Virus record (IMG/VR): IMGVR_UViG_3300046007_008659
Location: 1 to 28,976 of that record
From: a virus
DNA length: 28,976 bases
Reading direction: 5' to 3' (one strand)
A model generated the notes under the pieces. It was given only the letters and a program-made list of their open reading frames with translations, did not search any database and was not told the DNA's origin. Of this stretch, positions 6,574 to 28,653 are shown one piece after another. The translations under genes and the position numbers were made by a program. Numbering within the stretch: the stretch's first letter is position 1; each line of letters starts with the position of its first letter.

Positions 6574-8345
6574 TGGACGAGACGGGCCCAATTGTTGAGA
6601 CGGTGCAAATCGACGCCGACGACTCGCTCGCCAAGTCGAAAATGGAGTCGTTCGGGTCGTGGGTGCAAGGGTGGGGGAAGAAACTCACGATCGCCGCGGG
6701 CCTAGTGTCGGGCCTCGCCGGATCGGTGCAAGCGGCGTTTGCCAAGAGTGCGGCCGACCTGTCGTCCTATTCGGTCTCACAAGCCAAACTCGCCGAGACT
6801 CACAGCCTCACGACCGACGAGCTGCAAGCGATGCAGCTCCAAGCGCAGCAAACCGGCGTCTCGCTCGACAAGTTGATCGAGAGCGGACAAGGGGCGTCGG
6901 CGGCGTGGCTCGCGGCCGGTAACGCTCTCGGAACTGCAATCAGTCCCGAGGCAATCGCGGCCGGCGTCAATCTGTCGCGGGCGATCGGTCTCGCAAAAGA
7001 TCAAGTGCGGGCGCTCTGGATGAATATCGGGGCCCATTTAGCGCCGTCGATGACGGAGTTCTGGAAGATCGCGCAAGGCGTTCTCTCGGTCGTGATTCGC
7101 TGGGTAAAGGAAAACGGGCCCCTAATCCAAACCGTCTCGAAAGTCGCCTCGGCCGCGGCGGTCGTCGCCGGTGCTCTCGCCGGTGCCGGTTCGGTGCTGT
7201 GGGGCGTCGGCGCGGCGATCGGATGGCTCACGCCAATTGTGGGCACGCTCGGCGGTGCTTTGGTGACGTTCCTCGTCTCGCCTATGGGTATGGTTGCGGT
7301 GGCGGCGGCGGCGGGTGTCGCGGCGTTGCTCTATTTCTCGGGCTCGGCTCGACAGATGGTCGCCGGCGTGGGTGGCGACTTTGGCGCGATGTGGCAAGCG
7401 GCCGTTGAGGCGTTCGGGAAAATCTATCAGTTTGTGATGACAACCGTCGGCGGCATCAAGCAAGCATTAGCGGCCGGCGATATGGCGCTCGCGGCCGAGA
7501 TTGGTTGGTCGGCGGTCAAGGTCGCCTGGTACAAGGGGGCCTCGGAGGTTGTCGGCCTGGTGCGCGCGGTGATCGGCGGCGACTGGTTGTCGACGGCGAT
7601 CGCGGGCGTCGGTTCGGCGTGGACGATGTTGCTCGACGGGTTCGATGCGGTTTGTGTGGCTATTGAGAATTCATGGGACACGCTTTGGACCAACGCGCGA
7701 AATATGGTCGCCCTGGCTATGGCCGAGGTTCTCAAGGCCGTCGACGCGATGAAAGGGGCGTTAGCGATTCTTGCCGTTATGGCCGACCCACTCGACTCAA
7801 TGGAAGGCAAGAACGAAAAGATTGCAATGATCGGTAAGGGTGGCACGATGGCGGCTAAGGGGCTCGACGTCGTCACGGCAAACCAAAACGCGAATAGATC
7901 GGTTGAGTTGTCGGATCGGGTCGCGGGTCGCAACGCGGAGGCTACCGCAAACCGAGCGGGAAACGCGGCTAGTGGTGAAGCGGTGGCGGCTCAATTGCGA
8001 GGGCTTGCCGACGCGAGCCAGGGCTACGTCGAGGAAATCGGCCAAGGTCTACGCGAGTCGCTCGAAAACGCTACTGAGCAGTGGCAGCAAGGGCTAGCCA
8101 ATGCGGGCCAACTCCCGGGCCTGGTGCCTGGCGCTGGCGGTATCGCTGGCGGCGGCGGCGGTTCACCCGATCAGGTTCGGCAATCCGCAATGGCGACGTT
8201 CTCGGCCGTCGCCGCGGGCCAAACCGGCGCGACGAGTTCTACGGTCCCGACGCAACAGCTACAGACGCAACGCACGATTGCGGACAACACGGCCGAGACC
8301 AATCGACTACTACGAAACCCGCGGCCGTTGACGGTGGGAGTCTAA
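6573..8345 (+). CDS. Tail tape measure protein
   Basis: 590 residues from the ATG overlapping the previous stop (TGATG). The protein is long, Ala/Gly-rich and helical, with several hydrophobic stretches (around residues 180-260) that resemble the membrane-active segments of tape measures. The C-terminal part is rich in Gln, Asn and Gly. It is the longest protein in the virion module and directly follows the chaperone, as expected. It sets tail length; at the usual ~0.15 nm per residue it would suggest a tail of roughly 80-90 nm, short for a siphovirus. No lysozyme or peptidase domain is visible within it. Confidence 0.8.
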   Translation: MDETGPIVETVQIDADDSLAKSKMESFGSWVQGWGKKLTIAAGLVSGLAGSVQAAFAKSAADLSSYSVSQAKLAETHSLTTDELQAMQLQAQQTGVSLDKLIESGQGASAAWLAAGNALGTAISPEAIAAGVNLSRAIGLAKDQVRALWMNIGAHLAPSMTEFWKIAQGVLSVVIRWVKENGPLIQTVSKVASAAAVVAGALAGAGSVLWGVGAAIGWLTPIVGTLGGALVTFLVSPMGMVAVAAAAGVAALLYFSGSARQMVAGVGGDFGAMWQAAVEAFGKIYQFVMTTVGGIKQALAAGDMALAAEIGWSAVKVAWYKGASEVVGLVRAVIGGDWLSTAIAGVGSAWTMLLDGFDAVCVAIENSWDTLWTNARNMVALAMAEVLKAVDAMKGALAILAVMADPLDSMEGKNEKIAMIGKGGTMAAKGLDVVTANQNANRSVELSDRVAGRNAEATANRAGNAASGEAVAAQLRGLADASQGYVEEIGQGLRESLENATEQWQQGLANAGQLPGLVPGAGGIAGGGGGSPDQVRQSAMATFSAVAAGQTGATSSTVPTQQLQTQRTIADNTAETNRLLRNPRPLTVGV

Positions 8346-8349
8346 GCCT

Positions 8350-9234
8350 ATGCCATTGTCGCCAGAAACGTTTTTCGAGTCGTCGCCTCGCAAGGTGAAA
8401 TTCACGCCGGCGAGCGGTGCGCAGACGATCACGGCTGTTTATAAGGTCACGGGGACCGATGATTATAACGAAATCATCAACTACGCCATCGAGAATGATA
8501 ACATTCCGTACCTAGTGACAGGGGCGATCGGTTTCGCGGGTGTGATGACCGACGTCGAGGCACAACAGCACGGCAAAGGCTCGTTTTGGACGGTGCAGAT
8601 TACTTGGGAGGTGCCACCATTCCGCGCGGACGACGGCGAAACCCCGCCCGACTCTCTCGCTTTCAGTTGGGACACGACGGGCGGCTCGGCGCATATCACA
8701 CAATCGCTCGAGGTGATCGATCAAGAATGGGCCTCGGGGATTCCTCACACTGACCGATCGATCACGATTGGCGAGGATGACCAAGGCAATGTCACGGGGG
8801 CCGATATTCCGGTCCCGTCGTGTCGGTTCGAGGTCGTTGAGATTAAGACCCTCGACGCTTACTCGCCGTCGTCGGCAATCGATCACTATCGCAAAACGGG
8901 GAAAGCAAACTCGAGCGACCTCACGATCGCTGTGAGCGCAACCAAGTCGTTTACGTTCTCGGCCGGCGAGGCGATGTTCCTCGGCGCGCGGACGTCGTAC
9001 GACCCAAGCTCGGGCAATGTGCAGACCGTGTTTGTGTTCCTGGGCCAGGCCAATAAGACGTCGATCACGGTCGGCGATATGACGGTCGCGAGCAAGAAAG
9101 GCCACGACCTACTCGTTACGCATTTTGTCGAGAAGGTCGACGCAACCACGAAGGTTAAGACCAAAAAACCTTCAGAGGTCGTGATCCATCGGGTTGTTGA
9201 GTTCATCGACCTCAACGGAATTTGCGGGCTATAA
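8350..9234 (+). CDS. Putative distal tail protein
   Basis: 294 residues, four bases after the tape measure gene. Mostly beta-strand by pattern, with a polar middle (W-D-T-T-G-G-S-A-H-I-T-Q-S-L-E) and a C-terminal F-I-D-L-N-G-I-C-G-L. No signal peptide, membrane segment or catalytic motif is seen. Genes here in tailed phages usually encode the distal tail or hub proteins attached below the tape measure tip. I do not recognise a specific family, and the name is a positional inference. Confidence 0.5.
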   Translation: MPLSPETFFESSPRKVKFTPASGAQTITAVYKVTGTDDYNEIINYAIENDNIPYLVTGAIGFAGVMTDVEAQQHGKGSFWTVQITWEVPPFRADDGETPPDSLAFSWDTTGGSAHITQSLEVIDQEWASGIPHTDRSITIGEDDQGNVTGADIPVPSCRFEVVEIKTLDAYSPSSAIDHYRKTGKANSSDLTIAVSATKSFTFSAGEAMFLGARTSYDPSSGNVQTVFVFLGQANKTSITVGDMTVASKKGHDLLVTHFVEKVDATTKVKTKKPSEVVIHRVVEFIDLNGICGL

Positions 9235-12070: not shown

Positions 12071-12281
12071 TGATCGATTCGAGCAAGCGGTCGCGTAGTG
12101 ATTCAAAGAACGGCCGGGCGGACGCGCGAAGCGACTCGAGGTTCTGTCGATCAACCTCGCGGCGGCGGCGTTCAATCTCACAGTACGGGCACGCGGACGG
12201 CGTCGGCCGGTCGTTGCTTTCAGGTTCGAGCGGTACGCCGAGATTGTCGGCGATGGTCTGCAAGAGCTGTTGAGGGTTCAT
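12060..12281 (-). CDS. Small CxxC protein in integrase cassette
   Basis: 73 residues starting at an ATG that overlaps the integrase stop (ATGA on the minus strand), which points to co-translation. It has one C-P-Y-C motif near residues 31-34 followed by a long charged helix (E-I-E-R-R-R-R-E-V-D-R-Q-N-L-E). A single CxxC could bind zinc only as a dimer or with other ligands. I do not recognise the family. It sits between the integrase and a small membrane protein in one operon. Confidence 0.5.
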   Translation of the reverse strand: MNPQQLLQTIADNLGVPLEPESNDRPTPSACPYCEIERRRREVDRQNLESLRASARPFFESLRDRLLESINAN

Positions 12282-13156
12282 GGTCGGAATATCTTACCGA
12301 CGGGGCTCGGCGGTGTCACGATTCGAGGGTCTAGGTAGCGTTTGGTGACTTTGGCCGACGAGTGCCCGAGCAGCTCGGTAGCGTTATGACCGGCCGCGGC
12401 GTAGTGCGAGGCAACCGAGCGGCGCAAGCGGTGAAATTTACTCTCTCGGCCGTGGGGCAAGCCGGCTCGCTCGAGCAATTTGTCGTATCGGTTCCAAAGG
12501 TATGTTTTCGAGTAGGGCCAGGTGAGCACGCTCGGCGACTCTCGAGGGATAAGTCGCAAGGCTGCGACGGTCTCGGCCGCGAGCGGGTAACAACGATCGA
12601 GCCGACCTCCCTTGCGGGTCTCGGCTCGGCACACGGCGACGGCCTGGTCGAGGTCGACGTCGGGCCATTTGAGCCCGACGATCGCGGCGATACGCTCGCC
12701 GGTATCCCAAGCGATCAAGTGTAGGCATTGCCACCATACCGACGCCGGGCAACGGCTGATCGACCCCTCGGCGAGCCGGCATGCGTCGAGTAGTCGATGG
12801 ACGTCGGCCTCGGTCCAAGCCAACGCGACACGCTCGGGGATGACCTCGGGCTCTATCTCGGGCCAGGTGTCGACCATGCGGCGACGATTCAAGAATCGCC
12901 ACACGGCCAAGAGGTTGTAGCGATCGCGCTCGACGGTGCTCGCGGCGACTCCGGTCGAGCGTCGCCAGGCGAGAAACGAGCAGACGACAACCTCGTCGAG
13001 GTCGCCGATCCTAGCACGCCGGCCGAGGTACTCGTCGAAACGATCGAGCGAGAATCGGTAGAGCCGTTTGGTATTGGCGGCGCGAGACCTGAGTTTAATC
13101 GGCAGATAGAGTTGCTCGAAAGCATCGCGCAGATTTGCAATGGTTGCTGCGATCAC
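12278..13156 (-). CDS. int: Tyrosine recombinase / phage integrase (first of two)
   Basis: 292 residues from the GTG at 13156, chosen because AGGAG lies eight bases upstream; another GTG at 13165 would touch that ribosome site. The N-terminal half is a SAM-like core-binding domain (T-K-R-L-Y-R-F-S-L-D-R-F-D-E-Y-L). The C-terminal catalytic domain has every expected residue: R155 in T-G-E-R-I-A, K182 in T-R-K-G-G, H242-x-x-R245 in F-H-R-L-R, H265 in L-L-G-H-S and Y274 in K-R-Y-L-D-P. It should therefore be active in site-specific integration and, with a directionality factor, excision. It is transcribed away from the likely attP region and leads a three-gene minus-strand operon. Confidence 0.92.
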   Translation of the reverse strand: MIAATIANLRDAFEQLYLPIKLRSRAANTKRLYRFSLDRFDEYLGRRARIGDLDEVVVCSFLAWRRSTGVAASTVERDRYNLLAVWRFLNRRRMVDTWPEIEPEVIPERVALAWTEADVHRLLDACRLAEGSISRCPASVWWQCLHLIAWDTGERIAAIVGLKWPDVDLDQAVAVCRAETRKGGRLDRCYPLAAETVAALRLIPRESPSVLTWPYSKTYLWNRYDKLLERAGLPHGRESKFHRLRRSVASHYAAAGHNATELLGHSSAKVTKRYLDPRIVTPPSPVGKIFRP

Positions 13157-13289
13157 GGTAGTCACTCCTGGGCTGAGCTATAGTATCGCTCGAGCTAGTT
13201 CGATTGGCGGCAAACAGCGCCATTTTCGCGCGGCTTCGTGCCGTGGAGTGTTCGGAGAGTGCGGTTTGTAGGGGTCCTACGGTCAAGCC

Positions 13290-15917: not shown

Positions 15918-15988
15918 CGGGGCCGGTGTGTGGGCACGGCGAGGCCCTCCAAAGCCTCGCAAGCGCGGTTCAACTCCGCGGGCCTCGA
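15918..15988 (+). tRNA. tRNA-like cloverleaf (Trp-type CCA anticodon; atypical) or attP copy of one
   Basis: The sequence folds as a tRNA: acceptor CGGGGCC (15918-15924) pairs with GGCCTCG (15981-15987, one G-U), anticodon stem GAGGC/GCCTC, variable GCAAG, T-stem CGCGG/CCGCG with T-loop TTCAACT, discriminator A. The loop contains CTCCAAA, the usual loop of tRNA-Trp(CCA), but has one extra C, making eight bases. The D-arm is reduced (GTG/CAC, six-base loop), positions 8-9 lack TA, and CCA is not encoded. So it may be a degenerate phage tRNA or the attP copy of a host tRNA 3' half beside the second recombinase. Confidence 0.45.
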
Positions 15989-16002
15989 TTCAAGGTGTTG
16001 AA

Positions 16003-16671
16003 ATGACAAGCGACAAGCAAGCCAAGAGACGCGAGGGGGTCAAGTATATCCCCTGGTCACGCTACGACGACCTGGTCGCGGAGTTGCGAAAGATGATCGA
16101 CGGCGGCGACTGGTGCGAACAACGCGACGCGCTCGCAATGGTGCTCGGGTTGCATGGTCTGCGGGTCTCCGAGGTGTCTCGGTTGTTGGTGAGCGACCTA
16201 AGAAGCGCGGACGAGGTTCTCAACGTGGACACGATCAAACGCGGCCGGCATCGACTGATAGAGCTCGGCGTCGGCGTCTGTTCGGCTATTCGACGTTGGC
16301 GCGACGGTAGTCGGGTGCGTTGGTTGCTGTTCACCTCGAGCGGCGCACGGGTGCAACCGAGCCACTGGCAGCGGTTTGCGAGAGCGATCACGGGAAAGGT
16401 GCAAGAGTTCGACGGCCTGGTCGGAGAATCGCCGAGCGACTGTTTTCACTCGCTGCGACATACCTACGCGATGCGGTTACTACATGCGACGGGTAACGCA
16501 ACGCTAGTGATGGGTCGCCTCGGGCACCGAAAGCTAACGTCGACACAAGAGTATATCGGGTCCTACGGTCAATTGGGCGACAGGCAGCTCGCTCGGATTG
16601 GCAAGTCAATTGAGGTTGTGCCGTCGCTCGACGTCGAGCCGGCCGAGCGTTTGAAACTATTTGCGGGATGA
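16003..16671 (+). CDS. Second tyrosine recombinase
   Basis: 222 residues from the ATG at 16003 (AAGGTG upstream); a longer frame would run through the tRNA-like sequence and is unlikely. All catalytic residues are present: R54 in H-G-L-R-V-S-E, K79 in T-I-K-R-G, H149-x-x-R152 in F-H-S-L-R-H-T-Y, H175 in L-G-H-R and Y184 in Q-E-Y-I-G. The N-terminal part is only ~45 residues, so the usual core-binding domain is mostly missing. This resembles minimal XerC/D-like or IS/integron-type enzymes. It may resolve multimers, drive an inversion, or act with the first integrase. It is on the opposite strand from the first integrase. Confidence 0.85.
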   Translation: MTSDKQAKRREGVKYIPWSRYDDLVAELRKMIDGGDWCEQRDALAMVLGLHGLRVSEVSRLLVSDLRSADEVLNVDTIKRGRHRLIELGVGVCSAIRRWRDGSRVRWLLFTSSGARVQPSHWQRFARAITGKVQEFDGLVGESPSDCFHSLRHTYAMRLLHATGNATLVMGRLGHRKLTSTQEYIGSYGQLGDRQLARIGKSIEVVPSLDVEPAERLKLFAG

Positions 16672-18375: not shown

Positions 18376-18576
18376 ATGTTGGTGTTATCACGGAAGAAGC
18401 GGCAAGAGATTGTGATCGACACGCCGGCCGGGCCGGTGCGAGTGTCGGTCGAGTCGATAAAGGGCAACCAAGTGCAGCTCGGCGTGATCGCCGACGCCGG
18501 CACGAAAGTCTATCGCCGCGAGGTGTGGGACAAGATCACGGCCGGCGAGCCTCGGCCAACGCCTCGAGCAGCGTAG
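18376..18576 (+). CDS. csrA: CsrA-family RNA-binding regulator
   Basis: 66 residues, full length for the family. The N terminus M-L-V-L-S-R-K is nearly invariant in CsrA; I-K-G-N-Q-V-Q-L-G-V matches the second strand region of E. coli CsrA, and V-Y-R-R-E-V-W-D aligns with V-H-R-E-E-I-Y, keeping the RNA-binding Arg. The C terminus has a short Pro/Arg-rich extension. CsrA dimers bind GGA motifs in hairpin loops of mRNA leaders and change translation or stability. Phage copies may redirect host metabolism or time phage genes. GGA-containing motifs lie right behind this gene (next entry). Confidence 0.93.
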   Translation: MLVLSRKKRQEIVIDTPAGPVRVSVESIKGNQVQLGVIADAGTKVYRREVWDKITAGEPRPTPRAA

Positions 18577-19852: not shown

Positions 19853-20319
19853 GTGGCGAAACGATCGAAATTCGCTGGATGGTGCGCGGCGACGTTGCCG
19901 ACGCGGCTCGGATCGAGGCCGAGTGTTATAGCGAGCCCTGGTCGGCCGACGAGTTTCTCGCCGAGCTGTCGATCCACAACGGCTACGGGCAAACGCTGTT
20001 GATTGGCGGCGCGATCGTCGGCTATGCGATCTATCGTATCGGTGAGAATGTCGAGCTCAAGAATATCGGGATAGCACGCTCGCGGCGTCGTCTCGGCCTC
20101 GGGTCGTTGCTGATCGACAAGCTCAAGGCGAAATGCTCGCCCCATCGTCGGCCAAAGCTCGCGGCGATGGTCTGCGAGAACAACCTCACGGCGCAATTGT
20201 TTCTCCGGTCGCTCGGGTTTCGGTGCGTCTCGATCGAGCATCGCCCTTACTGGGGCTCGGCGCAAGATGGGTATCGGTTCGAGTGGTCAACAGAATCGGC
20301 GAGGTGCAGCAATGCTTAA
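19849..20319 (+). CDS. GNAT N-acetyltransferase, RimI-like
   Basis: 156 residues, ATGA-coupled to the initiator gene. It has the GNAT acetyl-CoA motif: V-E-L-K-N-I-G-I-A-R-S-R-R-R-L-G-L-G-S-L-L near residues 68-88, with the R-R-x-G-x-G phosphate loop. Next come E-N-N-L-T-A-Q-L-F-L-R-S-L-G-F (motif B) and a C-terminal Y-W/Y strand. The order and the E-C-Y-S-E-P-W-S start resemble RimI, which acetylates ribosomal protein S18. A phage version may modify a host protein or antibiotic-like compound. The substrate is unknown. Confidence 0.75.
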   Translation: MSGETIEIRWMVRGDVADAARIEAECYSEPWSADEFLAELSIHNGYGQTLLIGGAIVGYAIYRIGENVELKNIGIARSRRRLGLGSLLIDKLKAKCSPHRRPKLAAMVCENNLTAQLFLRSLGFRCVSIEHRPYWGSAQDGYRFEWSTESARCSNA

Positions 20320-21052
20320 ACCATTCACGGGCCTCGGGCTCGTTCGTCGCCGCGGCGAGGTGCCGTCGGCCGTCGACAACTATCGGACCTCGAGCGACCC
20401 GAGCAAGCGGCGACGCTGGAAACCTCCCGCGCAAGGCTGGGCCGACTTTTCCCCGTGCGGTGCGTACCGATACACGCTCGGCCGAGATTACTCGATCGAG
20501 CATCGGATCGACGGCGTCGAGTATCGGCCGGGCTGTATCGTTTGGCTAATGCTGAACCCGAGCGAGGCTCACGAGTCGCACGACGACCCGACGGTCCATC
20601 GGTGCTTTGTTCGCTCCCGGTCGATGCTGATCGGCTATCGTGGCGGCGTCGAGCATCGTATCGGCTGGGACTCGGCTGTCGTGCTCAACCTGTTCGCGTT
20701 GCGTGCTACCAATCCCGAGGTAATGATCGCGGCCGATGATCCCGTCGGGCCCATGAATAACCCGGTGTTGCGAGAGGTCTGCGGCGGTGCCGATTTTCTT
20801 GTCGTTGCGTGGGGGTGCGACGGCCGGCATCGAGACCGAGACGTCGAAGTCTTAACGAAGCTGCGGACACAATGGCGCGTTGAGGGTGGTACGCCTCGGA
20901 ATATCTACGCACTGGGCCTCAACGACGCATTTGGCGAGCGGCCGTCGCCTTGCCACCCTCTCTACCTCGGCTACGACAAGCGAGCGATTCCCCTCGGTCT
21001 CGAGTTCGACGCCGAGCATCGAATCATCGGGATAGAACGGGGGCCGGCATGA
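20312..21052 (+). CDS. DUF1643 protein
   Basis: 246 residues overlapping the previous gene by eight bases. The family signature is strong: Y-R-Y-T-L-G-R-D, then I-V-W-L-M-L-N-P-S-E-A with D-D-P-T-V-H-R-C, V-V-L-N-L-F-A-L-R-A-T-N-P, P-V-G-P-M-N-N and V-V-A-W-G, ending H-P-L-Y-L. DUF1643 proteins occur in phages and bacteria; the fold and function are not established to my knowledge, although the conserved Asn, Asp, Trp-Gly and His residues suggest an enzyme. The first ~45 residues are an extra basic extension before the family core. Confidence 0.85.
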   Translation: MLKPFTGLGLVRRRGEVPSAVDNYRTSSDPSKRRRWKPPAQGWADFSPCGAYRYTLGRDYSIEHRIDGVEYRPGCIVWLMLNPSEAHESHDDPTVHRCFVRSRSMLIGYRGGVEHRIGWDSAVVLNLFALRATNPEVMIAADDPVGPMNNPVLREVCGGADFLVVAWGCDGRHRDRDVEVLTKLRTQWRVEGGTPRNIYALGLNDAFGERPSPCHPLYLGYDKRAIPLGLEFDAEHRIIGIERGPA

Positions 21053-21486
21053 GTAGCAAAAGACGGCCAGTTCTCGACCTCGCGGCGATCATGGCGGCGA
21101 GTCGCAAGTCGGCGGCGGGCTCAATGCCTGGCGTTAAGGCGCTCGCGCGGCCTGGTCACGTTCGCGGCAGAATGAACGGCCTTGAGCGTTCGTATTCTGA
21201 GTATCTCGACGGCGAGGTCGCGGCGGGCCGGGTGATCAAGTATCGATTCGAGTCGGTGTCTCTGGTGCTCGCTCGACCTCCCGCGGGCGGCAAGGCGGTT
21301 ACGTGGACGCCGGACTTTTGGGTTGTGCTCGCCGATCGGTCGATCGAGCTAGTCGACACGAAAGGCGGGCTCGAGCGAGCTGCACAGCGGGCAAAAATCA
21401 AGATTGCGGCCGATGTGTTCGACGAGTTCTTCGTCGTCGTCTTGCGCCGAATCAAAGGGACCTGGCAACGCGAGGTGATCAGTTGA
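21049..21486 (+). CDS. PD-(D/E)xK nuclease, DUF1064-like
   Basis: 145 residues, ATGA-coupled to the DUF1643 gene. The nuclease core is readable: E46 in L-E-R-S-Y-S-E-Y-L, P88-D89 in T-P-D-F-W-V-V, and D103-x-K105 in E-L-V-D-T-K-G-G, which gives the E...PD...(D/E)xK arrangement. The basic N terminus could help DNA contact. Similar phage enzymes (DUF1064 and relatives) are proposed to be recombination or junction nucleases acting during replication. Position behind the initiator supports a DNA-processing role; the exact substrate is not known. Confidence 0.75.
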   Translation: MSSKRRPVLDLAAIMAASRKSAAGSMPGVKALARPGHVRGRMNGLERSYSEYLDGEVAAGRVIKYRFESVSLVLARPPAGGKAVTWTPDFWVVLADRSIELVDTKGGLERAAQRAKIKIAADVFDEFFVVVLRRIKGTWQREVIS

Positions 21487-22061
21487 GCGAAGCGCCAAAC
21501 GTACAACCAAAACACGCAACCGAGGCCGGCGAGTTGGTTCGGCTCTATCTCGGCCGTGATCGTTACGACCTGGCTCGGCAAGTGGTAACGAACTATCGAC
21601 GCTCTCGATCGACCGACGACGAGCGGTTCGGTCGCCTCGACGAGTATCTCTCAAGGATCACAATACACGCCGAGCGAGCCATTCTCGGCGAGTCGGTCGA
21701 ATGGTTACTGGCGGCGCGAGTGCTGCGAGAGCTCCAAGACAGCGTCGGGCGCGGCGTCGAATCACTCGCCAGAAACCCTAAGGCGGTTTGGGATATTCGT
21801 ATCGTCGAGCTGCCGGTCTGCGCGATCACGATCAACCTGCTCGAATCACGCGGCGTTGAGTTGATGCGCCAATTGCTGGCAAAGTCGCCTGGCGATCTGC
21901 TCGCCATTCCTGGGCTAGGCGAGAAGCGTCTCGACGAGCTGCTCGTCGCTGTGCTCGGGTTTGCCGGTGATCTGACCCACAACAGCAACCGCGGGCAGTA
22001 TGCGAACTACGTCACGCCGGCATGGCGTTATGCGATCGAAAACGGCGAATTCCGACGCTAG
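21483..22061 (+). CDS. Protein with RNA polymerase alpha-CTD-like domain
   Basis: 192 residues from a TTG that overlaps the previous stop (TTGA). Residues ~1-100 are helical and charged. Residues ~104-162 match the alpha subunit C-terminal domain: I-V-E-L-P-V-C-A-I-T-I-N-L-L-E-S-R-G-V, then L-L-A-K-S-P-G-D-L-L-A-I-P-G-L-G-E-K-R-L-D-E-L, the same order as the bacterial 'L-x-vR-x-N-x-L-k ... vqdLv ... dLl-x-i-x-n-l-G-x-K-s-l-x-E-I'. In RNA polymerase this helix-hairpin domain contacts promoter UP elements and activators. A stand-alone phage copy could bind DNA or compete with host alpha. The helix-hairpin-helix also exists in other DNA-binding proteins, so alpha kinship needs checking. Confidence 0.6.
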   Translation: MSEAPNVQPKHATEAGELVRLYLGRDRYDLARQVVTNYRRSRSTDDERFGRLDEYLSRITIHAERAILGESVEWLLAARVLRELQDSVGRGVESLARNPKAVWDIRIVELPVCAITINLLESRGVELMRQLLAKSPGDLLAIPGLGEKRLDELLVAVLGFAGDLTHNSNRGQYANYVTPAWRYAIENGEFRR

Positions 22062-22479: not shown

Positions 22480-22920
22480 ATGGCGATCGCCGACCAATCT
22501 TTTGCGAGTTATCCCGAGGTGCTCGAGGAAGTTCGCGCGGCGGTTGCCTACGGTCGCTCTCTCGCGGCCGACGCCGACGGCCTGTCGCGGCAAGACTTGC
22601 GGTCGATCGTTGCTCGCTCGGCTCCCGTGTTGATCGAGATTCTCCGCGGCTATGAGTCGATGAAGAAGCAGCAAAAGAAAGCGATCGTCGACGCGGCGCT
22701 CGCCGAGGTGCTTTTGCAGCTCAAGCCGTATTTGATCGACACGGCCGCGGCGATCATTGCGTCGCTGTTGCCGTGGTATCTCGCCTGGTTGCCGTGGGTT
22801 TTGTCGCTCCTGATCGACGTCGACATTGTCGGCCGGCTCTCGGCCGAGATTCCCGGTATATCCCAAGCCGTGTTCGACGGCCTTAAATCAATTTGGTCAC
22901 GTTCCAGCAAATCGGAGTAG
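22480..22920 (+). CDS. Membrane protein, holin-like candidate
   Basis: 146 residues. The first 75 residues are soluble and helical; residues ~88-115 form a long hydrophobic, Trp/Leu-rich part (A-A-A-I-I-A-S-L-L-P-W-Y-L-A-W-L-P-W-V-L-S-L-L) that could form one kinked or two short spans. The C terminus is amphipathic. It is the first gene after the late promoter candidate and leads a group that includes a lysin-like peptidase, so a holin or lysis regulator is possible. Holins are usually shorter and lack such a long N-terminal domain, so confidence is limited. Confidence 0.5.
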   Translation: MAIADQSFASYPEVLEEVRAAVAYGRSLAADADGLSRQDLRSIVARSAPVLIEILRGYESMKKQQKKAIVDAALAEVLLQLKPYLIDTAAAIIASLLPWYLAWLPWVLSLLIDVDIVGRLSAEIPGISQAVFDGLKSIWSRSSKSE

Positions 22921-22926
22921 GTTCCT

Positions 22927-23682
22927 ATGCGTTCCCTTGTGTTGTTGTTGGTGTTGTGCCTGTTCGCTTCGGTCGTTGCTGCGGCCGATCAACCCTCGCC
23001 TCGGGCCTCGGATCATTACGCGACGGCCTACCAAGCTGCGCAGTCGTGCGGCAAACTTTGCGTGCTGGTAACGACCAGTAATTGTGAGCCTTGCGAGCTG
23101 GCTAAATTATGGTTTGGCAAGATGGCTCGCGACAAGTCGGCCGGCGCTTGCGTCATTCTCGACGCCGAGACCGACGCGAAATACGTCGCCGACATTGCCG
23201 ACGACTTTAAGGGCTACCCTCAATTGATCGTCTACCGAGACTTGGCGACCTCACCTCGCCGCGAGTGCCTGGTCGGTTGGCAAGCTATCAGTTCCCGCGG
23301 CCTGGTCGCTGTGGTCGGTATGGTGATCGACGACGACTCGAGGGGAGTCGCCGCGGTGCCGGCCGAGCAGCTCGTCGAGGTGTCACACTCGGCCGATACG
23401 TGCAAGGGTTGCCGGAATTGCCCGAGCGATTGCTCTGCTCACGGTTGCCATTGTGCCGGCTCGCATGCTGCCGGGGCATGTGGGGCCGGTTGCGGCCTGG
23501 TGCGAGGTCAACCCGTTAGAAACATTGCTCGAGCCGCGGCCGGTGCTGCGGTTTGGGTAAAGGAAAGCAAGCCGGTGCGACGAGCAGTCGCCGGCGTCGC
23601 CATTGGCTCGGCAAAGGTCGTGCGGGCCGTCGTGTGGCGTGCGTTCCATCCGTTGGGCGGTCGCTGTCGCGGCTGCCGTTGA
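22927..23682 (+). CDS. Secreted thioredoxin-fold protein with Cys-rich C terminus
   Basis: 251 residues. Residues 1-20 are a signal peptide (M-R-S-L-V-L-L-L-V-L-C-L-F-A-S-V-V-A-A-A). Residues ~30-140 look like a thioredoxin fold with the redox pair C53-E-P-C56 in T-S-N-C-E-P-C-E-L-A-K and a later F-K-G-Y-P-Q-L-I-V-Y cis-Pro region. Residues ~168-200 hold a dense Cys/His cluster (C-K-G-C-R-N-C ... C-H-C), then a basic helical tail. It would work in the periplasm, perhaps forming or breaking disulfides in Cys-rich phage proteins such as the one at 10157. It could also bind metal. Confidence 0.65.
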   Translation: MRSLVLLLVLCLFASVVAAADQPSPRASDHYATAYQAAQSCGKLCVLVTTSNCEPCELAKLWFGKMARDKSAGACVILDAETDAKYVADIADDFKGYPQLIVYRDLATSPRRECLVGWQAISSRGLVAVVGMVIDDDSRGVAAVPAEQLVEVSHSADTCKGCRNCPSDCSAHGCHCAGSHAAGACGAGCGLVRGQPVRNIARAAAGAAVWVKESKPVRRAVAGVAIGSAKVVRAVVWRAFHPLGGRCRGCR

Positions 23683-23710
23683 TTGTTTGCCGTCGTGGTC
23701 GAGTGCTTGT

Positions 23711-23742
23711 CGGGTCGCCGGTTGAAGGGTGCCGGCGACCCG
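23711..23742 (+). repeat. Hairpin of the TCGCCGG/CCGGCGA type (copy 2)
   Basis: CGGGTCGCCGG pairs exactly with CCGGCGACCCG around a ten-base loop starting TTG. It shares its inner stem and loop start with copy 1 at 22417-22450 and ends 28 bases before the next gene, the same spacing as copy 1. Confidence 0.55.
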
Positions 23743-23770
23743 ACTCGCTCACCAATCGAAAGGGTCGAAA

Positions 23771-23992
23771 ATGCAAGGGATTCTCGAATTTTTCGCCAAA
23801 GTGCCGTGGGTCGGGTTTCTGGCTGCGGTCTCTCTGGTGTTGATGCTCTTTTGGCCGGCGTTTGCCGGCATGCTCTACGGGTTTGTCGGTAAGGTCGTCA
23901 CGTTCGCGGACAAGCCGAGTCGAGCGGCGCTCGCGGCGATCAAGCAAGCTGAGGCCGACAAGCAAGCGGCCTCGCAACCTCCAAAGGTCTAA
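23771..23992 (+). CDS. Small membrane protein, holin candidate
   Basis: 73 residues from the ATG at 23771. One or two hydrophobic segments at residues ~8-45 (V-P-W-V-G-F-L-A-A-V-S-L-V-L-M-L-F-W-P-A) are followed by a charged helix with Lys/Ala and a polar tail (S-Q-P-P-K-V). Small size, N-terminal hairpin-like membrane part and charged C terminus fit a class II holin. It lies upstream of the peptidase gene. Direct proof needs lysis tests. Confidence 0.5.
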   Translation: MQGILEFFAKVPWVGFLAAVSLVLMLFWPAFAGMLYGFVGKVVTFADKPSRAALAAIKQAEADKQAASQPPKV

Positions 23993-23995
23993 ACC

Positions 23996-24439
23996 GTGGA
24001 AAACAACGGGTTTTTGATCGTTCTTGTGATCGCCGCGGCGTTGGTGTTTGGCGGCTATGGGGCAGGCGTTACGCCGAGCCCGAGCCCGACGCCGGCCGTC
24101 GTGCAACCGAGCGCCGACACGCAAGCGGCATTTGCGGATCTGCGGGCAACCATGTCGCGATATCCCGAGGCGGCTCGGTTTGGTGCCGAGTGGCGAGACC
24201 TTCACGCGGTAATCGGTTCGACGGGCACGAAGATCACGACGAACCAACAATTGCGCGACCTGGTCGACAAGTTCTCGCGGTTGCTGGTCACGCAACGATA
24301 CGCCGGCTCGCCGTTCATTGGTTTTACCGACGGGGCAAACAAAGCGTTGACGAAACTGTTCGGCGACGAGTCGGTCGCGATCGACCCGAACAAAGCGTCG
24401 GACTATATCCTCGGTATCGCCTGGGCTTGCGGGGGGTAA
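23996..24439 (+). CDS. Membrane-anchored protein of unknown function
   Basis: 147 residues from GTG. Residues ~5-22 form an N-terminal membrane anchor (F-L-I-V-L-V-I-A-A-A-L-V-F-G-G). Next comes a Pro/Ser spacer (P-S-P-S-P-T-P-A) and a helical domain with W-R-D-L-H-A-V-I. It is probably exported to the periplasm while held in the inner membrane. It directly precedes the peptidase gene (two bases) and could anchor or regulate it, but no family is recognised. Confidence 0.5.
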   Translation: MENNGFLIVLVIAAALVFGGYGAGVTPSPSPTPAVVQPSADTQAAFADLRATMSRYPEAARFGAEWRDLHAVIGSTGTKITTNQQLRDLVDKFSRLLVTQRYAGSPFIGFTDGANKALTKLFGDESVAIDPNKASDYILGIAWACGG

Positions 24440-24441
24440 TT

Positions 24442-25563
24442 ATGGGCTACAAGTTCTACAACCCGGGCGGGCAGCTATGGTTGCCGTCGATGGTTGGCCT
24501 CGCGGCCGATCAAATCGCGACGGCATACGAGAATGGTTTTGTCGGCGCTTACTTCGACCCCGACGAATGGGATAGGCGTCGAGGTGAAGCTCTAGCGGCA
24601 ACGGGTTATGCAACCGTTGGCGACGCTGCGACGGCTAACGGGTGGGCCGGCTCAGCCGCGGGCCAATTGGTAATTCCGTTCGTTCATGTTCTCGAGCAGT
24701 ATCCCGGCTGTTGGCCTGGGCCGGCTCAAGAGCGTGGCGACTGTGTGTCGCACAGTGACAAAAATACATGCTTATTGACGACGGTTTGCGACGTCGTCTC
24801 GGGCTTGCCTGATCCACGAACAGGCAACCTCGAGGGGTTCCCCGAGATAAGCGCCGAGGGTATTCGACAAGGTTGTATCTCGTCGGAATGGGTCTATTGG
24901 TTCCGAGGCTCAAACGGCGACGGTTGGTCGTGCGATGCGTCGGCATCATGGCGAACGAAAATCGGCATCATGCTGCGGCAAGCGTATCCCGAGTTGGGTA
25001 TCGACTTGACTCGATACTCGGGCTCGCTCGCAGGCAAGTACGGCGGTCAAAAACCGCCCGAGGCGATGCAAGTCGTCGGCCGCGAGCATGTTCTATGGTC
25101 AACGGCCAATGCTGACACGTTCGAGGAAAGTCGCGACGCTCTGGCCAACGGTCACGGTCTGCACACTTGCGGCGGCGAGGGTATCTCGAGCACGCGCGAC
25201 GAGAACGGCGTCTCGCGTCGGTCGGGTTCATGGTCTCACGCGATGAGCTGGATTGGGGCCGACGATCGACCCGAGACGCATAAACTCTACGGCGAGGGCC
25301 TCGTCCTAGACTTGAATTCTTGGGCCAAGTGGAACAATGGGCCGCGAGACATTCGAGACTCGGCTCGGTATGTTCCCGCGGAGAAGCGCGACGCATGGGT
25401 CGCCGCGGGCATCGTTAACCATGCGACGGGAAATATCATGATTCCCGATGGATCGGCCTGGATTCGCTACAGTGAGTTTAAGAATCGCCAGGTGATCGCG
25501 TTCTCGGGTGTTCAGGGTTGGAAGCCGAAAAAATGCAACCCTTTACAAACGGTGTTCGGATGA
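24442..25563 (+). CDS. Papain-like cysteine peptidase (lysin candidate)
   Basis: 373 residues from the ATG at 24442; longer upstream reading only shadows the previous gene. The papain-type active site is recognisable: Q96 and C101 in A-Q-E-R-G-D-C-V-S-H, corresponding to papain's Q-x(5)-C; H266 in S-W-S-H-A-M; and N292 in L-D-L-N-S-W-A-K-W-N-N-G-P, the usual 'NSWGxxWG' site. About eight further cysteines could form disulfides. No signal peptide is seen. A phage enzyme in this gene neighbourhood could cut peptide cross-links of the cell wall, or a surface protein layer, for lysis or entry. Families that share this layout are mostly proteases, so a virion-associated protease is the main alternative. 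Confidence 0.65.
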   Translation: MGYKFYNPGGQLWLPSMVGLAADQIATAYENGFVGAYFDPDEWDRRRGEALAATGYATVGDAATANGWAGSAAGQLVIPFVHVLEQYPGCWPGPAQERGDCVSHSDKNTCLLTTVCDVVSGLPDPRTGNLEGFPEISAEGIRQGCISSEWVYWFRGSNGDGWSCDASASWRTKIGIMLRQAYPELGIDLTRYSGSLAGKYGGQKPPEAMQVVGREHVLWSTANADTFEESRDALANGHGLHTCGGEGISSTRDENGVSRRSGSWSHAMSWIGADDRPETHKLYGEGLVLDLNSWAKWNNGPRDIRDSARYVPAEKRDAWVAAGIVNHATGNIMIPDGSAWIRYSEFKNRQVIAFSGVQGWKPKKCNPLQTVFG

Positions 25564-25814
25564 TTCGCCTCGCGTTGATCGCCGTTCTCGTTTCGCTGTC
25601 GGGTTGCTCGCCGGCGTCGCCTGGTCGTGATCGCGACGCAAAGGCGCTCGCGTGCGGAGTGCTCGCGGTTATGCCGGCCGGCGTCGCGCCGCGCCCGTCG
25701 CCGCGGCCGAGCCCGACGCCGACGAAGTGTGACAATTGCAATGGCACGGGCCGGGTTGGCGATGGTCGTGTTTTCGTTCCTTGTCCGGTTTGTGGGGGTG
25801 ACAGGATAAAATGA
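25560..25814 (+). CDS. Proline-rich lipoprotein with DnaJ-type zinc motif
   Basis: 84 residues, ATGA-coupled to the peptidase gene. The N terminus has a lipoprotein signal with lipobox L-S-G-C (Cys 16). The middle is Pro-rich (P-R-P-S-P-R-P-S-P-T-P-T), and the C terminus has C-D-N-C-N-G-T-G-R and C-P-V-C-G-G, like one half of the DnaJ zinc finger. Size, lipobox and proline content recall Rz1-type outer-membrane spanins, but the zinc motif is not part of known spanins. The following gene could be the inner-membrane partner. Confidence 0.6.
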   Translation: MIRLALIAVLVSLSGCSPASPGRDRDAKALACGVLAVMPAGVAPRPSPRPSPTPTKCDNCNGTGRVGDGRVFVPCPVCGGDRIK

Positions 25815-26224
25815 GCGATGCGCCAACAGTTTCACCGAATCGGCTCGAATCGTCGGAAGATTCAATTCGGGCAACCGTCGCCGGCGTTTCTATGTCTATC
25901 GATAAGCAAACCGCGATTGCGGCCGGTGGTCGATTGGCATCGGTTCATCCCGGTTACTGGATCGCCGCGGCAACGATCGGCCTTGCGGTGTATGTGGTCG
26001 AGCGTGCTTTCCCTTATCACATTGGCTTGGCTGTTGAGTCGGTCATGGTGCCGATCAACGAGCAAGGCGAGCGACAACGGGTTCAGGGTGAGAAACTTGA
26101 CCGGACGGTCGAGAAACTCGTCGAGGTCACGGGAGACCTAAAAGACCAAGTCAAAGAGCTGCGAGCGGAAGAGCGCGAGCGTCGCGCCCCTATCCCGGTC
26201 GGGCCGGTAGTTGGTGGGTCGTAG
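25811..26224 (+). CDS. Membrane protein with coiled coil (possible inner-membrane spanin)
   Basis: 137 residues, ATGA-coupled to the lipoprotein gene. One membrane span at residues ~48-66 (Y-W-I-A-A-A-T-I-G-L-A-V-Y-V-V-E) is followed by a long charged coiled coil (E-R-Q-R-V-Q-G-E-K-L-D-R-T-V-E-K-L-V-E) ending in a Pro/Gly tail. Inner-membrane spanins have a membrane anchor and a periplasmic coiled coil, and their outer partner is a small lipoprotein; here the order is reversed relative to Rz/Rz1. The long N-terminal domain is unusual for a spanin. Confidence 0.5.
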   Translation: MSDAPTVSPNRLESSEDSIRATVAGVSMSIDKQTAIAAGGRLASVHPGYWIAAATIGLAVYVVERAFPYHIGLAVESVMVPINEQGERQRVQGEKLDRTVEKLVEVTGDLKDQVKELRAEERERRAPIPVGPVVGGS

Positions 26225-26225
26225 C

Positions 26226-26379
26226 ATGCCGCGGCTCGAGTAGATCGTCGCCGAGACAATCGAGAAACTCGGTCGAGCGATCGACTAAGTCGGCAACCTC
26301 CCGACCTCGAGCGACGTCGAGACTCTCGTCGCGGCAATTGCGGTTTTGGTGTTTGTGATGTTGCAAAAGGTCGTTAATC
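26226..26379 (+). pseudogene. Broken small reading frame with two in-frame stops
   Basis: From the ATG at 26226 the frame reads like protein but is broken by TAG at 26241-26243 and TAA at 26286-26288. Between and after them are I-V-A-E-T-I-E-K-L-G-R-A-I-D and a hydrophobic A-A-I-A-V-L-V-F-V-M-L-Q-K-V, probably one membrane span. Similar third-base GC choice to neighbours suggests a former gene for a small membrane protein that has lost function, and the reading continues into the next gene. Suppressed stops would be the alternative but nothing supports it. Confidence 0.45.
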
Positions 26380-26712
26380 ATGCCGGACTATGTAAAACAC
26401 GCGGTTGCAGCTCTCGCCGGCGCGGTGCTGTCGGTTGCGCTCGGCATGCCGGCGAAGGTTGGCGACTTGCAACCCGTCGAGCCTCACGATCGAGCCGGCC
26501 TATTGTCTCGGCTACGGCGCGACAGCGGGTCGCTAGCTGCCGGGCCGGCGACACTCCACGTTATCCGCGCGAACGATTCACGGGCTACGATTCACGTTTC
26601 GACCGACTCTCATGAATGGCTGTTGACCGTTGGCGGCTCGGCGTCGATCACGCCTATCGACGTCGGCGGCTCGTTTCCCCCTCGGCCTCGCATTGGAGGC
26701 GCTGCGCCATGA
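26380..26712 (+). CDS. Exported small protein of unknown function
   Basis: 110 residues. The N terminus looks like a signal or anchor (H-A-V-A-A-L-A-G-A-V-L-S-V-A-L-G-M-P-A), then comes a polar domain with beta-type repeats (A-T-L-H-V-I-R-A-N-D-S-R-A-T-I-H-V-S). The C terminus is Gly/Pro-rich. No known motif. Its stop overlaps the next ATG. It lies between lysis genes and surface-protein genes. Confidence 0.5.
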   Translation: MPDYVKHAVAALAGAVLSVALGMPAKVGDLQPVEPHDRAGLLSRLRRDSGSLAAGPATLHVIRANDSRATIHVSTDSHEWLLTVGGSASITPIDVGGSFPPRPRIGGAAP

Positions 26713-26852
26713 GTTGGGAGAATTTGCCGGCGTATGTGCTTTGGTGGCTGTTCGCGCCTCGACCTGATCACGCGCTCGCGTCGGCCGTGTGGGGCCTCGC
26801 CGGCGCTGTTGCGTTGCTGGTGATCGTTCTCGTTTTCGGTTCCAAGAAGTAG
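26709..26852 (+). CDS. Tiny membrane protein
   Basis: 47 residues, ATGA-coupled to the previous gene. A Trp-rich N terminus (W-E-N-L-P-A-Y-V-L-W-W-L-F-A) and one C-terminal span (A-V-W-G-L-A-G-A-V-A-L-L-V-I-V-L-V-F-G) ending S-K-K. Likely an inner membrane protein and possible holin or antiholin by size. It is short, so confidence rests mainly on the overlap with its neighbour. Confidence 0.45.
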   Translation: MSWENLPAYVLWWLFAPRPDHALASAVWGLAGAVALLVIVLVFGSKK

Positions 26853-27180: not shown

Positions 27181-28653
27181 ATGCCAACTAGCGGCGGAAT
27201 ATACTACGCAGACGCGGCAACAGGTTCAGAAACTAACGGCTACGCCGATATAGTCAACATTGCGCCGAGCATTGCGTTGAGTCCGTACAATCAAGCGGGC
27301 GACAACACAGCGTTTTTAAGCACGATCGAGGCGGGCTGGACGTTTCGACTGCAAATCGACGCGAGTAACTATATTGAGTTTGTGATTACCTGGTGTGCTC
27401 CCGTCAATGCGCACTACGAGTTTCATTGTTCTTCGCGCACTACGGTCGGCACTTGTCCCGACTTGGAATACTACGAGCTGTTTGCGGATGCGCCTGGGCC
27501 ACCTACCCCGACGGTATCGATCGCTTTGGCCTCGAGCTCGATCGCCGAGAACGGCGGCGAGACGGCCGTGATCGCAACGCTCGACATTACGTCGAGCAGC
27601 ACGGTAACGGTTAACCTTGCGTACACGGGGACGGCGAGTAACGGGGCCGACTACAGTCGCTCGGGTACGTCGATCACAATCTCGGCCGGTGAGACCTCGG
27701 GCTCGGCGTCAATCACTTCGATCGACGACACGACGTTCGAGGGTAGCGAGACGGTTATCGTCGACGTCTCGTCGGTCACCAACGGGACCGAGAACGGGAT
27801 CCAACAAGTCACGTTGACGATCACGGACAACGACACAGCGCCGACGGTGTCGATCGCCCTGGCCTCGAGCTCGATCGCCGAGAACGGCGGCACGACGGCC
27901 GTGATCGCGACGCTCTCCAATCCCTCGACGCAAGAGGTTACGGTCAATCTCGGCTACACGGGGACGGCAAGCAACGGGACCGACTACTCTCGCTCGGGCA
28001 CGACGATCACGATTGCGGCGGGCTCGACCTCGGGCTCGGCCTCGATCACAAGCATCGATGACACGACGTTCGAGGGTAGCGAGACGGTGATCGTCGACGT
28101 CTCGTCGGTAACCAACGGGACCGAGAACGGGATCCAACAAGTCACGTTGACGATCACGGACAACGAACAAACCGCGAGGTATGGTCACGTTGTCGCGCTG
28201 GGTGTCGATGGCGAGTGTGTGATCCCTCGCGCGTTTGCTGGCGAAACATTGCGAGGCGGCGAGTTGATTGGCGGCGACCCGGGCCCAACGATCTGCGCTC
28301 GCGTGATATCAGAGCCCGAGAGTCTCGGCGGCGCTGGTCGCAACCTGTTGCGGTATGACGTCGCCTCGGCTCGCGTTTGGGCGGGCGTTCATGATGGCAC
28401 GGGTAACGATCCCGAGGCGCTCTCGGGATGGTCGAATAAAACCGACGCGATCGACCTCGATGAAGCGATCACTACGGCGCTGCCGTGGTCGGGCGATCAC
28501 AACGGCTACAACTTTGCCTGGCAAATCCCCGACGAGCTGCTCGACCTGGTGAGCGTTGGCGACTGGCTCGTCGTTGACATTGCTCTCGACCTCGAGAGCG
28601 GCGACGTATGTCGCGTGCGGTTTACTGCTCGTATGGTTTCCGAGGGTGTTTGA
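27181..28653 (+). CDS. Surface protein with two Calx-beta domains
   Basis: 490 residues. Residues ~1-108 are an N-terminal beta-type domain; residues ~111-218 and ~222-329 are two Calx-beta domains, each with S-I-A-E-N-G-G near the start, G-T-A-S-N-G-x-D-Y-S-R-S-G in the middle and a strongly acidic end (D-D-T-T-F-E-G-S-E-T-V ... I-T-D-N). Such domains bind calcium and are used in adhesion. Residues ~335-490 form a separate C-terminal domain with Trp/Gly/Asp content (F-A-W-Q-I-P-D-E-L) that may be the receptor-contact or capsid-attachment part. The two Calx-beta units are a tandem duplication at DNA level. Probably a tail fibre or decorating adhesin. Confidence 0.75.
   Translation: MPTSGGIYYADAATGSETNGYADIVNIAPSIALSPYNQAGDNTAFLSTIEAGWTFRLQIDASNYIEFVITWCAPVNAHYEFHCSSRTTVGTCPDLEYYELFADAPGPPTPTVSIALASSSIAENGGETAVIATLDITSSSTVTVNLAYTGTASNGADYSRSGTSITISAGETSGSASITSIDDTTFEGSETVIVDVSSVTNGTENGIQQVTLTITDNDTAPTVSIALASSSIAENGGTTAVIATLSNPSTQEVTVNLGYTGTASNGTDYSRSGTTITIAAGSTSGSASITSIDDTTFEGSETVIVDVSSVTNGTENGIQQVTLTITDNEQTARYGHVVALGVDGECVIPRAFAGETLRGGELIGGDPGPTICARVISEPESLGGAGRNLLRYDVASARVWAGVHDGTGNDPEALSGWSNKTDAIDLDEAITTALPWSGDHNGYNFAWQIPDELLDLVSVGDWLVVDIALDLESGDVCRVRFTARMVSEGV
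27511..28168 (+). repeat. Tandem duplication, 333-bp unit (Calx-beta coding)
   Basis: The units start at 27511 and 27844 (offset 333 bases, 111 codons). The first part has diverged (GETA versus GTTA, and different inner loops) while the last ~110 bases are almost identical, including synonymous positions. That pattern suggests recent duplication or gene conversion of the 3' parts. Confidence 0.85.

Follow-up and report, generated by a model that had tools for sequence, protein, structure and literature searches.

The exit enzymes of cultured phages are mostly peptidoglycan hydrolases. Papain-type enzymes are protein-cutting enzymes of the meat-tenderiser type, and in papain itself the oxyanion Gln lies 6 residues ahead of the catalytic Cys. 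Phage lysins that have a papain fold (CHAP, NlpC/P60 and Amidase_5) are the subject of a review (PMC10318531), and in our literature searches we came across no account of thioredoxin in connection with papain-family phage lysins. Here we analyse a papain-like gene in the window, by which we mean the whole 28,976-nucleotide stretch of viral DNA that was studied (IMG/VR record IMGVR_UViG_3300046007_008659). The gene belongs to a papain-type family with many members in environmental phages and none in 50,697 phage records, and the family is tied to thioredoxins and membrane proteins; standard annotation has missed this gene family, which can now be named.

The papain-like enzyme and its family

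The gene occupies window positions 24442..25563 on the + strand, starts with ATG, and encodes 373 aa, as seen in a check of the open reading frame. A first-pass annotation had proposed Q96, C101, H266, and N292 as a C1 peptidase active site, and all four residues are indeed present at those positions, within the motif stretches 'PAQERGDCVSHS', 'GSWSHAMSWIG', and 'LDLNSWAKWNNG'. When the window protein was shuffled, a papain-like Q/C/H/NSW motif set arose in just 21 of 200,000 shuffles, so the set found in the window enzyme is not a product of chance. Searched alone, the window protein gave no match in Pfam, PHROG, or a PDB sequence search, and it did not reach the curated Pfam cut-off of Peptidase_C1 (PF00112). 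We saw no signal peptide in its 373 residues, and a Pfam search found no wall-binding domain in it.

Relatives were collected by scanning IMG/VR with a degenerate DNA pattern for Q..GDCVSH. At least 120 IMG/VR stretches matched this Cys-motif pattern, and relatives are encoded in 117 among the matches listed, the closest of those being L179, L150, L181, L128, L163, and L166 (phmmer E 4e-109 to 5e-56). Proteins of about 310 aa form a large group within the family, which reads 'ERQTTGDCVSHSTRNAVDITRAVE ... HAMAWIACDDT ... LFLVQNSW'. The earlier description of the enzyme as rare thus does not hold for environmental phages, with at least 117 loci in IMG/VR, and does hold for public phage records, since tblastn with the window protein found no match in any of the 50,697 phage records. 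The same search found none in 72,556 plasmid records, strict peptide-pattern scans of IMG/VR and genomes for the window protein returned nothing, it had no match among 46 capsid-kin records, and a 309-aa relative was likewise without a match in phage records. Downstream of the enzyme in L150 (9181-9744) is a 187-aa protein that looks YiiX/permuted-papain-like by eye ('GDMIFSSGHSAFSKIIKEVTGTPWSHLCV') and has no Pfam match.

The search pattern imposed Q96, G99, D100, C101, V102, S103, and H104. Because Cys101 was imposed, its invariance is no evidence of activity, and because Gln was imposed at -5, its presence there throughout the family alignment gives no independent support for the role of Q96. 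Residues outside the pattern are invariant at the other two catalytic positions: H266 was found in 111/111 aligned members and N292 in 109/109. S293 is kept in 108/109, and W264 and W294, also outside the pattern, are conserved too. A C-terminal-only alignment, in which conservation of the Cys could be followed free of selection, contained no stretch conserved enough for scanning. Q96 lies at -5 from C101, and the corresponding Gln of a second phage subfamily, described below, lies at -6 (L046 'QGSVRSC'); Q96 is a plausible oxyanion Gln.

Profile searches of 52 family members gave weak matches to Peptidase_C1 in 10, the best at E 7.7e-4, and matches to C39_2 in 2, the best at E 0.0067, and none of the 52 had a Pfam match to CHAP, NlpC/P60, or Amidase_5. 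The family profile also matches the plant papain-family protease 1CQD (E 9.6e-4) with the His and Asn in register. One family member matched Pfam TAT_signal (1.8e-5), and twin-arginine-type RRxF export N-termini occur in 4 of 113 relatives (L108, L109, L131, and L158).

AlphaFold2 run on the single sequence, with no alignment, returned a useless model (pLDDT 32), and run on the 52-sequence family alignment it returned one with pLDDT 90.6 and pTM 0.90. In the family model, a long helix (101-120) starts at C101, H266 lies within a strand (257-274), and N292 directly follows a strand (287-291), which is the papain arrangement as judged by position in helix and strand. Structure prediction had been suggested as a check in the first-pass annotation, and its result, together with the fold match and the invariant unselected His and Asn, supports the papain-family identity proposed there. 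Foldseek against the PDB gave the C1 protease xylellain (3OIS) as the best match, at E 9.1e-8 and probability 1.00, followed by cathepsins and papains, and in the viral library BFVD it matched phage proteins named Peptidase_C1. The TM-scores are modest, at about 0.3-0.44 by query length and 0.4-0.6 by target length, as would be expected given the extra N-terminal region. Taking model and alignment together, we regard it as almost certain that the window protein is an enzyme of papain fold whose active site is intact.

The gene module around the enzyme

The enzyme gene lies among genes that span window positions 22480-26852, all on the + strand and head to tail, with overlaps at 25560 and 25811:

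22480..22920, + strand: 146-aa protein with a hydrophobic C-terminal half, at the module start
22927..23682, + strand: 251-aa secreted Cys-rich protein with CEPC and a signal peptide, probably thioredoxin-like
23771..23992, + strand: small hydrophobic protein of 73 aa, holin-like by size and hydropathy only
23996..24439, + strand: 147-aa protein with an N-terminal signal-anchor-like segment, whose homologs adjoin the enzyme in relatives
24442..25563, + strand: papain-like (C1-type) enzyme, with Q96 as oxyanion Gln candidate, C101 as nucleophile, H266, and N292 (in NSW)
25560..25814, + strand: 84-aa lipoprotein-like (LSGC) secreted protein with a CxxCxGxG zinc-knuckle-like motif, overlapping the enzyme stop by 4 nt
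25811..26224, + strand: 137-aa protein with one hydrophobic segment and then a coiled coil (by eye), holin-/spanin-like by anatomy only
26380..26712, + strand: 110-aa protein with an N-terminal hydrophobic segment; in 7 loci its relatives lie upstream of the enzyme
26709..26852, + strand: 47-aa protein with a single hydrophobic segment, overlapping the preceding gene by 4 nt

Three of these neighbours can be followed into relatives by sequence. The 147-aa protein has direct phmmer matches in L128 (1.6e-6), L150 (1e-4), and L147 (1.2e-4), and of its iterative search, which drifts past two rounds, only the first rounds were used. In 49 relatives a homolog of the CxxCxGxG protein stands downstream of the enzyme, and the 110-aa protein has the relatives listed above. 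The remaining module genes match those of relatives by position and anatomy only, as searches for sequence homologs of the window's thioredoxin-like, membrane-plus-coil, and small membrane genes found none, and the 73-aa protein has no sequence homolog in the neighbourhoods of relatives. The 251-aa protein has no Pfam match, and in a profile comparison its CEPC aligns with the WCxPC of the cassette thioredoxins (probability 38%, E 3e-4, in a single comparison), so that we call it thioredoxin-like with a weak "probably."

Membrane and thioredoxin-type proteins recur around the enzyme in relatives. By hydropathy, a small hydrophobic protein lies within 1.2 kb of the enzyme in 57 of 59 fully flanked relatives, and such proteins (170 aa or less) make up 267 of the 548 genes within 1.2 kb (49%) vs. 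124 of the 975 genes farther away (13%), in counts that are not independent events. Of 118 loci, 15 have a thioredoxin-fold ORF close to the enzyme; 14 of these ORFs lie no more than 400 nt away and one lies at 771 nt. Pfam confirmed the thioredoxin in both loci tested, L158 and L112. In L112 the thioredoxin and the CxxCxGxG part form one fused protein, and the CxxCxGxG-type protein of L113 runs on into a thioredoxin domain in the same way. Right after the module, the window encodes a protein with two near-identical Calx-beta repeats (27181-28653, + strand).

A different papain-like gene occurs in the capsid-kin phages L043 and L046, where the two proteins are 50% identical to each other. The profile of these papains matches xylellain 3OIS at 3.4e-9, and relatives of this type are found in 24 IMG/VR loci, mostly in the order small protein, secreted thioredoxin-like protein with no CxxC, enzyme, and one-TM coiled-coil protein; the cassette takes in L043, L046, and L081-L103. 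The window enzyme was kept apart from this xylellain-type subfamily, because the subfamily's profile does not detect the window protein. There are thus two papain lineages in similar modules. An NSW-centred pattern scan gave one remote case only, in the 75-kb contig L076, where a third papain-like gene (8032-8922, P0002) directly follows a lipoprotein-like gene and has no clear sequence relation to the other two papain types.

Possible roles at the host envelope

Among cultured phages, Akkermansia phage Chantilly has the nearest capsid protein (35% identity, E 5e-39), the next best match being at 2e-14. This is a hint that the host may belong to the Planctomycetota-Verrucomicrobiota group; scans of bacterial genome contigs for a host assignment gave no match. 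A passage of one paper (PMC2754498, citing Liesack 1986) describes the planctomycete envelope as a protein sacculus with disulfide bonds, and an envelope of this kind would suit a protease combined with a thioredoxin. Planctomycetes also have lysozyme-sensitive peptidoglycan (PMC4432640).

Several other features of the window were recorded. It encodes a CsrA-type global regulator (18376-18576, + strand, PF02599 E 7.9e-15), a protein whose C-terminal domain resembles the one in the RNA polymerase alpha subunit (21483-22061, + strand, PF03118 just over the cut-off), and a DUF1643 protein (20312-21052, + strand) of a family that is common on enterobacterial and also found on haloarchaeal plasmids. 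This 29-kb record carries two tyrosine integrases on opposite strands (12278-13165, - strand, and 15928-16671, + strand). Positions 1-2584 of the window are 100% identical to L055 2883-5466, and L055 extends the phage leftward into a terminase adjoining the portal.

Classical wall hydrolases were searched for in contigs that carry the enzyme. Neither the window nor any of 36 carrier contigs (44-226 kb each, together about 3.3 Mb, and some perhaps incomplete) had a match to Amidase_2, M15_4, Phage_lysozyme, SLT, Amidase_3, or M23, and the same was true, for the window and 19 of those contigs, of M15_3 and the wall-binding domain PG_binding_3. The search set comprised these seven hydrolase families and PG_binding_3; control genomes matched in each search, PG_binding_3 being matched in Akkermansia phage Chantilly. 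Related phages in which the enzyme gene was not found lack the tested hydrolase families too, so the absence is not specific to carriers.

On balance we lean towards a reading in which the window protein is a catalytically active cysteine peptidase of papain fold, belongs to a lysis module, and is directed at the host envelope when infection ends. The Cys101-His266-Asn292 peptidase would attack the envelope late in infection after release to the periplasm, perhaps through one small holin-like membrane protein, and in four relatives the twin-arginine-type export signals may serve instead of holin-type release. Once in the periplasm, the enzyme could cleave wall cross-links or structural envelope proteins; we favour a protein or a peptide bridge as the substrate and make no choice between them. 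The secreted thioredoxin-like and CxxCxGxG proteins might help by keeping the catalytic Cys reduced and/or by opening disulfide-linked envelope proteins.

How the original proposal fares follows from these points: the family is broader than it foresaw, and the function more tentative. Its placement of the gene in a lysis region is supported by the small hydrophobic proteins in 57 of 59 flanked relatives and by the lack of any tested wall-hydrolase match in carrier contigs. "Rare lysin" survives in part: the papain family and the lysis-region module speak for it, and against it stand the abundance of the family, the window enzyme's lack of a wall-binding domain, and the related non-carriers that are also without the hydrolases. 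The proteinaceous-envelope target offered with it would fit the thioredoxin partners, and also a host among the Planctomycetota/Verrucomicrobiota, if that is where the host belongs. A more specific version, in which protease and disulfide reductase together lyse a protein-rich, disulfide-linked envelope of such hosts and replace a peptidoglycan hydrolase, seems doubtful to us.

Since the window module stands at a distance from the structural genes and has the Calx-beta protein after it, other envelope roles are possible as well. Among these, the enzyme might modify the envelope rather than lyse it, changing or protecting the host surface (as in superinfection exclusion) or maturing secreted phage proteins such as the Calx-beta protein encoded right after the module. 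There are more secreted and membrane proteins here than a minimal lysis cassette needs, and the two integrases would allow lysogenic expression. However, no wall hydrolase of a tested family is present to carry out lysis instead, and the gene is also found in carrier contigs of up to 226 kb, so we hold this to be unlikely, if the best of the alternatives.

Slightly less likely still is a virion-associated protease, packaged or linked to the tail, that cuts host surface proteins at entry. Papain-fold proteases suit protein targets, the second-subfamily gene comes shortly after the head genes in both L043 and L046, and the BFVD matches include long phage proteins with a papain fold; but about 12 kb separate the window gene from the end of the structural block, its neighbours are small membrane proteins, the export-type N-termini of relatives point to secretion by the host cell and not to packaging, and we saw no tail-domain fusion in the enzyme family. 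Many effectors are found among papain-fold enzymes, and the window protein has no signal peptide, as would befit a cytoplasmic protease or transglutaminase-like enzyme directed at host proteins for takeover or anti-defence; the RRxF export-type N-termini in four relatives and the constant association with secreted and membrane proteins make such a role improbable. That the protein is a catalytically dead papain fold serving in binding, as its unusual Gln-Cys spacing of 5 vs. 6 might suggest, is very hard to square with the strictly invariant unselected His and Asn, the NSW motif, and the position of C101 at a helix start in the model.

An envelope-directed peptidase acting at lysis would have several consequences. 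Because the enzyme is frequent among viruses that have been seen only as environmental DNA, it may represent an unusual route of exit from the host cell. If it lyses cells, it would form a new class of lysins, one that has an unusual redox requirement; it would also supply enzymes for use against poorly studied bacteria and help to mark out uncultured phages whose hosts have unusual envelopes.

Comparison with known systems

With Peptidase C1 (papain, PF00112; 3OIS), the window enzyme shares the predicted fold, the order and identity of the Cys, His, and Asn, and the NSW motif. It differs in having 11-13% identity to 3OIS, in falling below Pfam detection, in a Gln-Cys distance one residue shorter, in an N-terminal region of about 95 residues, and in being phage-specific as far as seen. 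The CHAP, NlpC/P60, and Amidase_5 lysins belong to the same distant superfamily, use Cys-His catalysis, and are phage genes directed against the envelope, the proposed target of the window enzyme; they are other families of that superfamily than the window enzyme. Akkermansia phage Chantilly (ON453895) has a PG_binding_3-type endolysin just upstream of its portal gene, and this is unrelated to papain.

Closer in fold are the BFVD proteins of uncultured Caudovirales named 'Peptidase_C1' (such as A0A6J5TCZ4 and A0A6J5QDM8) and A0A6J5MXS7, whose name 'Peptidoglycan binding-like' is the depositors' label. They share the predicted papain fold but are other sequence families, with 11-15% identity to the window enzyme and a putative function. 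The xylellain-type phage cassette differs from the window in that its thioredoxin-like proteins have no CxxC, and it resembles the window in that the papain-like enzyme comes after a secreted thioredoxin-like protein and before a one-TM coiled-coil protein.
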